IMG/VR virus record: IMGVR_UViG_3300031841_002960
Location: 1 to 30,171 of that record
Length of the DNA stretch: 30,171 nucleotides
DNA from: a virus
Strand: one strand, 5' to 3'
Positions within the stretch are counted from its first letter, which is position 1; every line of letters starts with the position of its first letter. Position numbers and translations under genes: made by a program. Below the pieces are notes generated by a model. It had not been told where the DNA came from, ran no database searches, and was given only the letters and a program-made list of their open reading frames with translations. Below are positions 9,654 through 24,725 of the stretch, piece after piece.

Positions 9654-10795
9654 ACCGGTATGCGTGTTGTTTCGCCGAATGGTGCATCACCACACCGCTC
9701 GTCAGTTGAAACCCATAACACTGGGTAATCTGGATGATCGTCAGGCCAGTCGTGTATGCCCATGTCAGTCAGGTAAACCATGTTATCGACAGGCAAGCAC
9801 TCGTCTTCGATGTAATCAAAAACAGGCGTGACCCTAGTGCCGCCACGACCCTTGCACTCAATCTCTTCGATAACATCGCCATGTTCGTAGCGTGTCACAG
9901 ATTGGATTTTTGCGTCACAGGTGATGACAGTAATAGACTGCGGCTTGTGATCATCGCTGATGGCATTAAGCTCCCCAAGAAATTGGGAAAGCTCACGACT
10001 GCTGACAGATCCAGATGTATCAACAGCCACCACAATATCACCGACACCGATCTTGCTGACCGATGGCATGTAAAGATTGCGGTTAAACCAAGCGTTTCGC
10101 TGTGGACGACGCCATGTGTAATCATCCGGCTGATCGCCACCGATAAAGCGGTTCAGAACATCGCGCCAATCGACCTCAGAGCGACGCATACGGGCGACAA
10201 GCTCTGCAATGCTACCAGATAGCTTGCCGACTGATTTGGCGCCCTGAGCGGCCAGAAAAACGCGCTGGTCAATAGAAGCTGAATATTGCTCAACTTCACT
10301 GCCAGACATTGGCTTGCCATTATCATTGTTTGGCTGACCAACATTGCCGCCCCATGGCTGGGGTTGTGGGCGTTGTTCGGGTGCCATGTTTTTCAGCAGT
10401 CGGTAAACCTGAACCCATGCCATGCCTGAATACTGTGGTTCATACAGGCCGCCTTTCGGCAACGTCATGCCATCCTCAATAAGATATGCATTAATGACAT
10501 AATCCATTGCCATGTTTTGGATCTCAGGATTTATGTCTTCGCCATCGATGTGTGTGATAGGTACGCAGTGCTTCAGCATAATGTGACCGATCTCATGAGC
10601 GATCACGCCCTGCACCTCTGGCTCACTAATCCGATCAACAAAATCAGCGTTCCAATAAATGCGCTGACCATCAGTCGCCATAGTGTCGTGATCATCGCTT
10701 TGGACAAACGGGGTGCCAAGTGTCAGCGACCCCCAAAATGGCTTATCCAATACCAATCTAGTTTTAGCTCTAGCTAGCTTTGTTTGTGTATCCAT
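9644..10795 (-). CDS. Metallopeptidase-VWA domain protein
   Basis: 383 aa. The N-terminal half has a zinc peptidase motif HEIGH at 67-71 (GVIAHEIGHIMLKH). The C-terminal half is a von Willebrand A domain with MIDAS residues D259-x-S-G-S263, a glycine-threonine at 319-320 and D344 in YLTDMG. This is the architecture of DUF2201-type 'putative metallopeptidase plus VWA' proteins, which usually partner a MoxR AAA ATPase, encoded here two genes upstream. Such pairs are thought to act as chaperone or assembly machines; the phage target is unknown. AGAGG precedes the ATG. Confidence 0.85.
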   Translation of the reverse strand: MDTQTKLARAKTRLVLDKPFWGSLTLGTPFVQSDDHDTMATDGQRIYWNADFVDRISEPEVQGVIAHEIGHIMLKHCVPITHIDGEDINPEIQNMAMDYVINAYLIEDGMTLPKGGLYEPQYSGMAWVQVYRLLKNMAPEQRPQPQPWGGNVGQPNNDNGKPMSGSEVEQYSASIDQRVFLAAQGAKSVGKLSGSIAELVARMRRSEVDWRDVLNRFIGGDQPDDYTWRRPQRNAWFNRNLYMPSVSKIGVGDIVVAVDTSGSVSSRELSQFLGELNAISDDHKPQSITVITCDAKIQSVTRYEHGDVIEEIECKGRGGTRVTPVFDYIEDECLPVDNMVYLTDMGIHDWPDDHPDYPVLWVSTDERCGDAPFGETTRIPVAA

Positions 10796-12139: not shown

Positions 12140-12156
12140 GTGACCAAGGCAGTCAC
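12140..12156 (-). other. Alternative 5'-terminal hairpin after ribozyme 1
   Basis: GUGACU (12156-12151), loop GCCUU, GGUCAC (12145-12140). The first strand is also the 3' strand of hammerhead stem I, so the two folds exclude each other. After cleavage it would be the first structure of the AAA ATPase mRNA. Confidence 0.7.
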
Positions 12157-12210
12157 GACACCGCCTGAGCGGTGTTTCGCCAGTGCCTCACGCTGGCTCA
12201 TCAGGTGACT
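12151..12210 (-). ncRNA. Hammerhead ribozyme 1 (type I)
   Basis: Read on the minus strand: stem I 12210-12205 with 12156-12151 (six pairs); core CUGAUGA 12204-12198; stem II 12197-12193 with 12183-12179; GAAA 12178-12175; stem III 12175-12169 with 12164-12158 (seven pairs, loop UCAG); cleavage after C12157 in GUC. All invariant core bases are present. Loop II GAGGC (12189-12185) can pair with GCCUU (12150-12146) just past stem I. The upstream gene's UAG shares two bases with stem I. Cleavage would separate the gene ending at 12209 from the AAA ATPase gene. Confidence 0.94.
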
Positions 12211-12883
12211 AAAACTGATCAGTCATTGCATTGATCTGATCATTCTCTTTTGCGACACGGTCAGCCGTTGCCTTGGCCTCAGCCTCTGCCGCAATCCGCT
12301 CACGCAATTTGTCTTCCAACAAATCTTTGAATGATTGGATTTCATCCAGATCTAGGTTTTTGTCTTCGTCCAAAAAGCCGCCAAGGAACTTGTCCCCCTC
12401 AACTTTTTGTCCGGCCTCAACCTTCGTTGACCGCCGACCGACAATCCTTTCGACCATCTTTTGGACACGGGTCTTGGTATCATCACCGGCAACAGCCTTA
12501 ATCAGCTTCGCCTCGCTAGTGATACCAGCATCGTTAAAGATATCAGAGACCATTGACGGGGTGATGTTGTTACCATTGATGCCGAAAATAAATCTGGCAC
12601 CGGCGGTGTTTTTGACCATCTTGTTTGCCATGCCCTCAGACATGCTCACTTGCGGCATGTTGATGAGCTGGTTCTTGATATCCCGACCGGTCTTTGTTGG
12701 AAAATTATTCTTGTCGGTCAGGTTAATGTTTGCGGTTGCCGCGATCATCACGCAGTAGCTATTCAGCTTGAGCGTGTTGGCTTCGCCGGTGGCATCCTTA
12801 GCGGTGCCGCGCAGGGTTTGGATTTGAGCTTCGTTGTTGCCAATTTTTTCGATGTTGGCGGCATCAATGACGATTGTCTGCAT
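12209..12883 (-). CDS. Hypothetical protein, 224 aa
   Basis: Starts MQTIVIDAANIEKIGNNEAQIQTLRG and has a conserved-looking region (LNSYCVMIAATANINLTDKNNFPTKTGRDIKNQL). The C-terminus is a coiled coil (DKLRERIAAEAEAKATADRVAKENDQIN). The family is not recognised. The ATG at 12883 is chosen because the ATG at 12895 lies in the AATGGAG ribosome site. Bracketed by hammerhead ribozymes 2 (upstream) and 1 (overlapping its stop), so its mRNA could be released as a single gene. Its place directly before the MoxR ATPase suggests an adaptor or substrate role, as inference. Confidence 0.7.
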   Translation of the reverse strand: MQTIVIDAANIEKIGNNEAQIQTLRGTAKDATGEANTLKLNSYCVMIAATANINLTDKNNFPTKTGRDIKNQLINMPQVSMSEGMANKMVKNTAGARFIFGINGNNITPSMVSDIFNDAGITSEAKLIKAVAGDDTKTRVQKMVERIVGRRSTKVEAGQKVEGDKFLGGFLDEDKNLDLDEIQSFKDLLEDKLRERIAAEAEAKATADRVAKENDQINAMTDQF

Positions 12884-12908
12884 ATCTGTCTCCATTGTTA
12901 GCAGATTA

Positions 12909-12923
12909 GTAGCAGGACGCTAC
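12909..12923 (-). other. Alternative 5'-terminal hairpin after ribozyme 2
   Basis: GUAGC-GUCCU-GCUAC, five perfect pairs, starting at the base immediately after the predicted cleavage site. The first strand is also the 3' strand of hammerhead stem I. Confidence 0.7.
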
Positions 12924-12976
12924 GACCCAGCAGTGCTGGGTTTCGCCAGTGTCCTAAGCTGGCATCATCAGGTAGC
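12919..12976 (-). ncRNA. Hammerhead ribozyme 2 (type I)
   Basis: Minus strand: stem I 12976-12972 with 12923-12919; core CUGAUGA 12971-12965; an extra U at 12964; stem II 12963-12959 with 12949-12945; GAAA 12944-12941; stem III 12941-12935 with 12931-12925 (seven pairs, loop ACU); cleavage after C12924. Loop II AGGAC (12955-12951) is complementary to GUCCU (12918-12914). Stem I abuts the UAA stop of the gene ending at 12977. Stem III differs in sequence from ribozyme 1 but keeps pairing. Confidence 0.94.
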
Positions 12977-13210
12977 TTAACCAGTGGCAATAAAGTTGCC
13001 GCCTGATCTAATGTTGAATGGCAGTGTGATATCGAAACGCCGATATTGCTTGGCGCGAAAATCGTAAACGACCGCCAAGTGATCAGGCACGTTTGGATCG
13101 TTTTTGATCACGCCCCAGACGGGACGGGTTGTCCCATCTTTTTTGGTAAATGAACCAGTGAAGATCCTGCCGTACCAATTACGCAGGATTTGTTCTTTTT
13201 TCATATGCAT
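12977..13210 (-). CDS. Hypothetical protein, 77 aa
   Basis: Basic small protein: MHMKKEQILRNWYGRIFTGSFTKKDGTTRPVWGVIKN... KQYRRFDITLPFNIRSGGNFIATG. The second half resembles short phage beta-strand proteins of the 'WY-KDG-x-R-x-WGV' kind; no family is assigned. Several in-frame ATGs exist (13222, 13216, 13210, 13204); 13210 has GGAG at the best distance, while 13222 would overlap the previous stop as TAATG. No ribozyme separates it from the upstream gene. Ribozyme 2 begins one base after its stop. Confidence 0.65.
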   Translation of the reverse strand: MHMKKEQILRNWYGRIFTGSFTKKDGTTRPVWGVIKNDPNVPDHLAVVYDFRAKQYRRFDITLPFNIRSGGNFIATG

Positions 13211-13221
13211 AAGCATCTCCA

Positions 13222-13455
13222 TTATTTGCCAGTGTAAACTGACGGGTTGTTGTGTTTAAAACGTGACCGCTTGCCAGCCTCATCAGTGATGAGGAACTCG
13301 GCAGGGTCTAGTTTGAGGTATCGGCAAACTTGAATGAGGTGGTATTTCACATCATCCAGATTGCCTACGATAACAGCTTCGTCACGCTCAACTTTGTAGC
13401 GGCTGTTCGATAGCTTGGTGATATCTCTGACTGTGTTTGTGATTGTGTAACGCAT
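13222..13455 (-). CDS. Hypothetical protein, 77 aa
   Basis: Small basic protein MRYTITNTVRDITKLSNSRYKVERDEAVIVGNLDDVKYHLIQVCRYLKLDPAEF..., unrecognised. GGGAG lies seven bases upstream of the ATG at 13455. Its leader begins at hammerhead ribozyme 3. Adjacent to the next gene with no spacer, so the two form one cleaved unit between ribozymes 3 and 2. Confidence 0.65.
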   Translation of the reverse strand: MRYTITNTVRDITKLSNSRYKVERDEAVIVGNLDDVKYHLIQVCRYLKLDPAEFLITDEAGKRSRFKHNNPSVYTGK

Positions 13456-13475: not shown

Positions 13476-13490
13476 ATAGCAGGACGCTAC
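13476..13490 (-). other. Alternative 5'-terminal hairpin after ribozyme 3
   Basis: GUAGC-GUCCU-GCUAU, five pairs with one G-U, beginning at the first base after the predicted cleavage site; mutually exclusive with stem I. Confidence 0.65.
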
Positions 13491-13544
13491 GACACCGCCG
13501 TAGCGGTGTTTCGCTGGTGTCCTACGCCAGCATCGTCAGGTAGC
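13486..13544 (-). ncRNA. Hammerhead ribozyme 3 (type I), overlapping a gene end
   Basis: Minus strand: stem I 13544-13540 with 13490-13486; core CUGACGA 13539-13533 (C at the variable position 7); an extra U at 13532; stem II 13531-13527 with 13517-13513; GAAA 13512-13509; stem III 13509-13503 with 13498-13492 (seven pairs, loop UACG); cleavage after C13491. Stem II (GCUGG/CCAGC) covaries with GCCAG/CUGGC in ribozymes 1 and 2. Loop II AGGAC (13523-13519) pairs with GUCCU (13485-13481). The last seven codons (SYLTMLA) and the UAG of the upstream gene encode stem I, the core and the stem II 5' strand. Confidence 0.94.
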
Positions 13545-13857
13545 TTTTCATTTCTTTAGAGCGGCGGTCAAAAAACTTGCCGCCTCGCACAATGCTAGGC
13601 TCATCATCCCAATGGCCTTCGCGGTAGTCGATCTGAGCGCGATTGTCGAGGTCATCAACAAACACCCTCATCACATCCAACCTGACCATTGTTGAAGGCT
13701 TGATGTTGTCGCCCAACAATTCTTCCAGAAAGGCGCGGTATGCTCCGCGCAATTCTGCTGGTTCAACATTACCAGCACACTCATGAAAATTTGAAATCTC
13801 ATTGTGGTTGTACTGTGATGACATATTGAATTTGAATTTGAATGGTATGGTTTGCAT
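13522..13857 (-). CDS. Hypothetical protein, 111 aa
   Basis: First gene of the ribozyme-bearing operon. Reads MQTIPFKFKFNMSSQYNHNEISNFHECAGNVEPAEL...YREGHWDDEPSIVRGGKFFDRRSKEMKSYLTMLA; no family recognised. Its Shine-Dalgarno AGGGG (13868-13864), six bases from the ATG, lies in stem III of hammerhead 4. Its C-terminal codons form the core of hammerhead 3. The gene is thus flanked and overlapped by ribozymes on both sides. Confidence 0.7.
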   Translation of the reverse strand: MQTIPFKFKFNMSSQYNHNEISNFHECAGNVEPAELRGAYRAFLEELLGDNIKPSTMVRLDVMRVFVDDLDNRAQIDYREGHWDDEPSIVRGGKFFDRRSKEMKSYLTMLA

Positions 13858-13861
13858 CGCA

Positions 13862-13918
13862 ATCCCCTGTTTCGTTGGTTACTCATCAGACATGGCTACC
13901 AGTGCCATGCGACAGGAT
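13862..13918 (-). ncRNA. Hammerhead ribozyme 4 (type III)
   Basis: Circularly permuted order on the minus strand: stem III 5' strand UCCUGU 13917-13912; cleavage after C13911; stem I 13910-13904 with 13896-13890 (seven pairs, one G-U, loop ACUGGUA); core CUGAUGA 13889-13883; short stem II 13882-13881 with 13875-13874; GAAA 13873-13870; stem III 3' strand 13870-13865. UGGU in loop I (13901-13898) is complementary to ACCA in loop II (13879-13876), the loop-loop contact typical of natural hammerheads. Stem III holds the ribosome-binding site of the gene at 13857. Stem II is only two pairs, so confidence is a little lower. Confidence 0.85.
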
Positions 13919-24229: not shown

Positions 24230-24296
24230 GTATACTGTATAGGAACCTTGACAGTCGCATGGTGTGGCTGACATTAGCCTAGACAAGGAGTTCCTC

Positions 24297-24725
24297 ATGG
24301 CTACTACAACTTTCGCTGGTCCAATTAAGGCTGGCTCAATTCGTGAAGGCGCGTCAGCAAACGTAGGCTTTGTGCGTATGGCGCAAACAGCAGACTGGAC
24401 ACAGTCAACAACCGCCGCTGACACCGGAATCACAATTCCTGCCAATAGTCAGATTACTGAAATCCGCATCTACATCACAACGGCTACAACTGCCGCTAAC
24501 ATCAGCATGGGCTTTAGCTCAACAACTACAGAACTGTTTACTGGCCTAGCCGCTGGCACAGCCGCAAACGTAGTTAAGCTGGGGTCAGCAGGCACAATTG
24601 CCGACATTGATGATTGGGTAGATGTAGGCTCTTCTGATGTTCCTATCTTCATTGACTTCTCCGCTGGTACAGCGGGCGCTGGTTATGTGACTGTAGAATA
24701 CATTCAAAACATCAATAACGCCTAA
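24297..24725 (+). CDS. Virion structural protein, 142 aa
   Basis: MATTTFAGPIKAGSIREGASANVGFVRMAQTADWTQSTTAADTGITIPANSQITEIRIYITTATTAANISMGF...: Thr/Ala/Gly-rich beta protein with almost no Lys. Related proteins follow the capsid gene in many marine phages. The ATG at 24297 has AAGGAG at the right distance. May be a fibre or decoration protein; not proven. Confidence 0.72.
   Translation: MATTTFAGPIKAGSIREGASANVGFVRMAQTADWTQSTTAADTGITIPANSQITEIRIYITTATTAANISMGFSSTTTELFTGLAAGTAANVVKLGSAGTIADIDDWVDVGSSDVPIFIDFSAGTAGAGYVTVEYIQNINNA

Follow-up and report, generated by a model that had tools for sequence, protein, structure and literature searches.

Intergenic RNase III sites cut the polycistronic transcripts of the early genes of phage T7 and leave stable hairpin ends; there a host protein cuts, whereas the RNAs described here are expected to cut themselves. 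A hammerhead ribozyme is present in the 3' untranslated region of rodent Clec2, in the 3' region of the mRNA near the stop codon, where it is discontinuous and belongs to a eukaryotic, single-gene message. Closest to the present case are the type I, II and III hammerheads that flank single genes or small blocks of genes in prophages, for which message processing was proposed (Perreault et al., 2011, PMC3088659). Cleavage was observed in vitro for clustered (pro)phage hammerheads that flank genes, and in E. coli for one triple array, and prophage hammerheads of all types use pseudoknots in the region of stems I and II; a position beside prophage genes, cleavage and pseudoknots were already known in 2011. 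The same source describes the HHphage ribozyme of haloviruses HF1 and HF2, which lies 13 nt upstream of a start codon, and for which the 5' end of the message was mapped at most 3 nt from the cut.

Here we analyse a window of 30,171 nt (the whole stretch of DNA studied, positions 1 to 30,171 of IMG/VR record IMGVR_UViG_3300031841_002960) from a marine phage, in which three type I hammerheads (R1, R2 and R3) lie at gene ends of one leftward operon and a type III hammerhead (R4) lies in front of a gene. Like the prophage ribozymes, R3 and R4 flank a single gene, and a pseudoknot joins the region of stems I and II. Stop and last codons inside a ribozyme, a bracket of type III and type I copies with a Shine-Dalgarno sequence in stem III, and a hairpin on the downstream product are found here and are not described in the accessible text of Perreault et al. 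(2011, PMC3088659). A literature search, to which subscription journals contributed little, returned no report of a natural hammerhead with a stop codon in its core or loop, and no description of a type III/type I bracket. The reading that best accommodates the observed sequence, structure, covariation, recurrence and position of these ribozymes, and one that we hold to be probable on this sequence evidence, is that they are operon-processing hammerheads that also end reading frames.

A hammerhead in the last codons of a 111-codon gene

The minus strand of the window carries a gene of 111 codons (13522..13857) with an ATG start, whose product has no assigned function; searches of Pfam and PHROG gave no convincing family. 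The gene ends in AAA AGC TAC CTG ACG ATG CTG GCG TAG, which encodes SYLTMLA before the stop, and codons 105-111 together with the stop are covered by R3 (13486..13544, minus strand). The first-pass annotation of this DNA had proposed that these codons double as stem I, the core, an extra U and the 5' strand of stem II, with the UAG in loop II, and the RNA of the minus strand, AGC UAC CUG ACG AUG CUG GCG UAG, agrees with that proposal to the letter.

Stem I (GCUAC/GUAGC) is formed by 13540-13544 and 13486-13490, stem II (GCUGG/CCAGC) by 13527-13531 and 13513-13517, followed by GAAA, and stem III is a hairpin (CACCGC-UACG-GCGGUG, 13493..13508) with a UNCG-type loop. The helices have 5, 5 and 6 bp plus the A15.1-U16.1 pair, and stem I is open. 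The CUGACGA core occupies 13533-13539, and R3 agrees with the hammerhead core at C3 U4 G5 A6 N7 G8 A9, at G12 A13 A14 A15.1 and at U16.1 H17, and cleavage is predicted between C17 at 13491 and the base at 13490. The extra U at 13532 lies between A9 and stem II; most relatives also carry an insertion at this place, and extra bases there are known from viroid-like hammerheads.

The UAG stop codon (13522..13524) is part of loop II, and two of its letters, A and G, are at the same time paired in a pseudoknot between the loop II strand UAGGAC (13519..13524) and the tail strand GUCCUG (13480..13485), which lies 3' of stem I. This pseudoknot provides the tertiary contact expected between stems I and II. 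As the 3' strand of stem I is complementary to the bases directly following the pseudoknot strand, a hairpin (GUAGC-GUCCU-GCUAU, 13476..13490) can form at the 5' end of the downstream product, which is exclusive with stem I; its energy is -3.6 kcal/mol in R3, -6.0 in R2 and -6.8 in R1. When the tail was included, the nested minimum-energy fold had a 7-bp helix of the pseudoknot strands in place of stem I (-27.9 versus -23.2 kcal/mol, in a model that cannot score pseudoknots), and folding of R3 could therefore be slow. The first-pass annotation had left out the pseudoknot, the product hairpin and the type III hammerhead upstream of the gene.

Covariation and detection of the ribozyme family

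Pattern scans of viral contigs and protein searches provided 47 distinct copies for alignment (L-numbers denote related sequences). CUGACGA, GAAA and UC are invariant across these copies, N7 excepted. Among the named helices 97% of cells were paired, compared to 78% in shuffles, both sides had changed at 18 of the 23 pairs, and pairing dropped below 50% when partners were slid by 1-3 columns. Stems I, II and III all covaried. The pseudoknot between loop II and the tail was 96% paired, with double changes in five of its six pairs, and occurs in variants such as UAGGAC:GUCCUG, UGAGAC:GUCUCG and UGAGGCA:UGCCUUG. For the hairpin of the downstream product 92% of cells were paired and five of six pairs were doubly changed, a signal that is partly shared with stem I.

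A covariance model trained on copies from other phages, leaving out the window and L012-L017, gave 86.4 bits for R3 (E 1e-22), 83.3 for R2 (12919..12976, minus strand) and 63.0 for R1 (12150..12211, minus strand). Stem I, the pseudoknot and the product hairpin of R1 all differ in a compensatory manner from those of R2 and R3. A descriptor consisting of the core and three stems matched the window three times, always on the minus strand, and did not match any of 100 dinucleotide shuffles. That R3 is a real hammerhead ribozyme can hardly be doubted. It could be argued that R1-R3 are chance likenesses or inactive relics, since none of the three has a hammerhead match in Rfam across 11.9-14.0 kb even at E<=10; however, the covariation, the score obtained with an independent model and the occurrence of three copies in one operon leave this explanation with next to no likelihood. 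A scan of the window at the Rfam gathering thresholds also returned no hammerhead. The missing score is a matter of model sensitivity and not a structural feature, and Rfam-based annotation misses these ribozymes, as neither scan reports them.

The motif CTGANGA occurs 32 times in the window, against 14.6 expected, and this excess is unexplained, as only four of the sites are hammerhead cores. The CTGACGA at 9699 is a coding motif rather than a hammerhead, since it lacks proper stems and the descriptor is silent there. A search of 398 genomes from a single bacterial phylum, the one to which a Buttiauxella MAG belongs, gave one weak match to the family, and the family thus looks essentially phage-borne.

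In the pseudoknot, the loop II strand nearly always begins with a U (alignment column 22, window position 13524) opposite G, a wobble pair and not C-G. The wobble preserves UAG or UGA in loop II, which hints at possible selection for the stop or at a tertiary role.

Stop codons at and inside the ribozymes

We scored the stop of the best upstream gene with Shine-Dalgarno support, relative to C3 of the core, in 54 copies. In 30 of these the stop fell at the edge of the ribozyme, either at -7 (20/54) or at -8 (10/54). R1 overlaps the stop (TAG, -7) of gene 12209-12895 in this manner, and R2 abuts that (TAA, -8) of gene 12977-13222. Seven copies had the stop at +1, where U4-G5-A6 of the catalytic core is itself the UGA, and the core thus doubles as a stop codon. 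A further eight had it at +15 in loop II, of which seven are trusted and that of L064 is doubtful; the remaining stops lay elsewhere or could not be assigned. The trusted loop II class comprises four gene families, beginning MQTIPF (window, L012, L016 and L017), MKRKRIY (L101), MTNRFL (L116) and MICQNP (L117). Frames reaching +33 in L002, L006 and L062 and the +15 frame of L064 were discarded for their poor starts, and a second candidate for +15, L101_6229, was rejected because the gene preceded by a Shine-Dalgarno sequence stops at -7.

Upstream genes enter the ribozymes in all three frames. The related small proteins of L117 and L100 do so in different frames and end at different ribozyme stops, with the tails PSKSYLTSGA* and PVKKKAT*, respectively, which makes the tail peptide look like a by-product. 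The overlap comes about because the gap is filled by the ribozyme, which itself offers stops that can be used, namely the UGA of the core, UA(G) at the edge and UAG or UGA in loop II. Dual coding of this kind had been called rare in the first-pass annotation, a judgement that does not extend to this family, where genes as a rule stop at the ribozyme or within it (54 copies).

R3 and its relatives lie between co-oriented genes. The upstream edge is tight and the next start usually follows at a distance of 20-48 nt (36 nt from C17 for the 77-aa ORF downstream of R3, 13222..13455, minus strand), and the genes both before and after the ribozyme vary between phages. Within the window the ribozymes are confined to one leftward cluster, and other leftward junctions are without them.

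This spacing could also be read as a translation gate, in which the core is covered by a ribosome whose A site holds the stop codon; heavy upstream translation would then delay cutting, and cutting would report that translation has ended. The leading edge of a ribosome lies about 12 nt ahead of the stop, and the stop is within -10 to +15 of the core in approximately 47 of the 54 copies; most such ribosomes would cover C3-A6 or more, which makes a gate physically plausible, and the tight upstream edge with a more distant start is in keeping with it. However, tight packing in a compact genome predicts the same positions, a cut after the stop would change only the timing with which two messages separate, and the stops fall in three frames and at four main places instead of at a single tuned distance. 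The gate is not needed to explain the layout, and we consider it unlikely as the main role of the overlap. As had been suggested earlier for this gene, a ribosome terminating at the UAG would cover the core of R3, and it might perhaps melt the ribozyme momentarily.

L002, L006 and L062 carry a divergent copy whose stem III is very short, and no good upstream gene ends at the usual place there; a weak frame continues into loop III (+33). The 24.7-kb contig L101 (IMGVR_UViG_3300006916_000359) has five consecutive model matches at gene borders, approximately 0.6-1.3 kb apart.

Homologues of the 111-codon gene

Homologues of the 111-aa protein were found at 88-90% (L012-L017) and at 44-56% (L018-L042). 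In the closer group (three further distinct sequences) the gene stops at the same codon with the same ribozyme, ahead of different downstream genes, and the UAG is therefore the real end of the gene, as the dual reading presupposed, with no true stop upstream. Free synonymous change in the core was not found among the homologues, but a synonymous count within this single gene draws on too few sequences to be decisive: the window and L012 differ at 29 codons in 1-91 and at none in 92-112, and codons 92-104, which are outside the ribozyme, are equally unchanged. L016 carries two compensatory pair swaps in stem II (U-A to C-G and G-C to A-U) that change codons 110-111 and result in Leu110Pro, indicating that RNA structure and not protein sequence sets these codons. 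The protein side of the proposed dual constraint is weak, as the ribozyme determines the letters of the tail, and a second small gene has homologues whose tails differ according to frame.

The stretch of codons 92-104 (window 13546-13584), upstream of the ribozyme, is identical in the window and L012, which points either to an exchange in the recent past or to an RNA constraint that reaches further than the ribozyme.

The distant homologues (44-56%) are without the ribozyme; their proteins finish at the same position, in KLKAHIxK-like tails, and at the gene end they mostly have a hairpin followed by T-runs that resembles an intrinsic terminator. The hammerhead therefore occupies the place of a 3'-end signal, and ribozymes fused to stops in all three frames take the place that terminator-like hairpins mostly hold in related phages. 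In cultured phages, neither BLAST with the 5-kb region nor tblastn with the proteins of 111 and 228 aa gave a match.

The variation in neighbouring genes raises a second alternative, that the ribozymes mark recombination or mobility junctions, whose near-identical repeats at gene borders aid the swapping of small genes; cleavage would then be a by-product or a means of spread, and the gene would have lost its own stop on joining. The same 111-aa gene precedes different genes in the window and in L012, L016 and L017, the same gene of about 220 aa is preceded by many different small genes, and the window equals L012 from codon 92 into the ribozyme. The heavy compensatory change in the stems, however, argues for selection on catalysis and not on the identity of a repeat. 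Such junctions would be compatible with a role in processing; as the explanation for the ribozymes we find them improbable.

A type III hammerhead upstream of the gene

R4 (13865..13917, minus strand) lies directly 5' of the 111-codon gene and has its C17 at 13911. It is a type III hammerhead with stem III open and stems I and II closed; stem I has 7 bp, stem II 2 bp and stem III 5-6 bp (UCCUGU/ACAGGG), and UGGU of loop I can contact ACCA of loop II. A stem II of two base pairs is common in hammerheads (PMC3088659). The position of R4 near a gene start is like that of the HF1/HF2 HHphage ribozyme, but the latter belongs to an archaeal virus and has core insertions that were linked to high-salt environments (PMC3088659), whereas the core of R4 is standard. 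An Rfam match of R4 to the flavivirus cHP element was rejected as a look-alike.

The likely Shine-Dalgarno sequence of the 111-codon gene, AGGGG, overlaps the 3' strand of stem III of R4. Copies like R4 precede genes in L008, L058, L077, L093, L121 and L123, and the Shine-Dalgarno sequence overlaps stem III in most of these relatives and lies directly beside it in L121 and L123. L058 has type III and type I copies on either side of a different gene, of 97 aa, in the very arrangement of the window; the closest homologues of the 111-codon gene showed no type III copy. It is conceivable, if rather speculative, that such cassettes link cutting and translation at both ends of a self-excised message, each hammerhead overlapping a translation signal, with type III hiding the Shine-Dalgarno sequence in stem III until the RNA has cut itself and type I giving the stop in its core or loop.

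The two cuts would also leave the excised message with a 5'-OH and a cyclic phosphate, ends that fit RtcB-type ligation, and a host ligase might close it into a circular mRNA, given that R4 and R3 flank the gene and that L058 is arranged alike. Against this, RtcB was not found in the 12 phage records searched, no circular or spliced products are reported for the prophage arrays by Perreault et al. (PMC3088659), and the type III copies are absent from the closest homologues. We regard circularisation as very improbable.

The ribozyme in a cultured Caulobacter phage

S2B (MN857473.1), an isolated member of the Autographiviridae and a phage of Caulobacter CB15, has the same ribozyme after gp060c (76.8 bits with the covariance model) and a lower-scoring one after gp062c (21.6 bits). 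The stops of gp060c and gp062c are the UGA of the core, and these genes were annotated by the depositors independently of any idea of a ribozyme. A type III-like hammerhead precedes gp065c (L108:645-700); its loop II contains the Shine-Dalgarno sequence AAGGAGG, and its stem III contains the start codon of that gene.

Proposed processing of the operon transcript

According to the operon-processing reading, R3 would cut the leftward transcript immediately behind one gene and ahead of the following one. The 111-codon gene has no stop of its own and runs into the ribozyme, borrowing the UAG of loop II, so that stem I, the core and the 5' half of stem II are also its last seven codons. The overlap would not endanger the reading frame, as cleavage lies 3' of the stop. 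After cleavage the upstream message would carry the stem III hairpin and a 2',3'-cyclic phosphate at its 3' end, and the downstream message would start with a 5'-OH and the small hairpin; the message of the 77-aa ORF would begin in this way at the R3 cut. Each gene would thereby receive message ends of its own while the polymerase is not stopped, and R4 together with R3 would excise the 111-codon gene as one message of approximately 420 nt. We infer that the ribozymes are active in the cell, process messages and affect their stability. The fusion to stops, the position taken by terminator-like hairpins elsewhere and the presence in S2B, a cultured phage of a model bacterium, make this idea directly testable.

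Other features of the phage genome

The ATPase encoded beside the ribozymes has a relative (40%) in Roseobacter phage CRP-7, which carries no such ribozyme. The terminase of the window resembles those of Pelagibacter phages HTVC027P and HTVC023P (52-58%). A Mu-gpT-DE RNA motif (63 bits) lies at 24246-24299 of the window, just after the gene for the major head protein.
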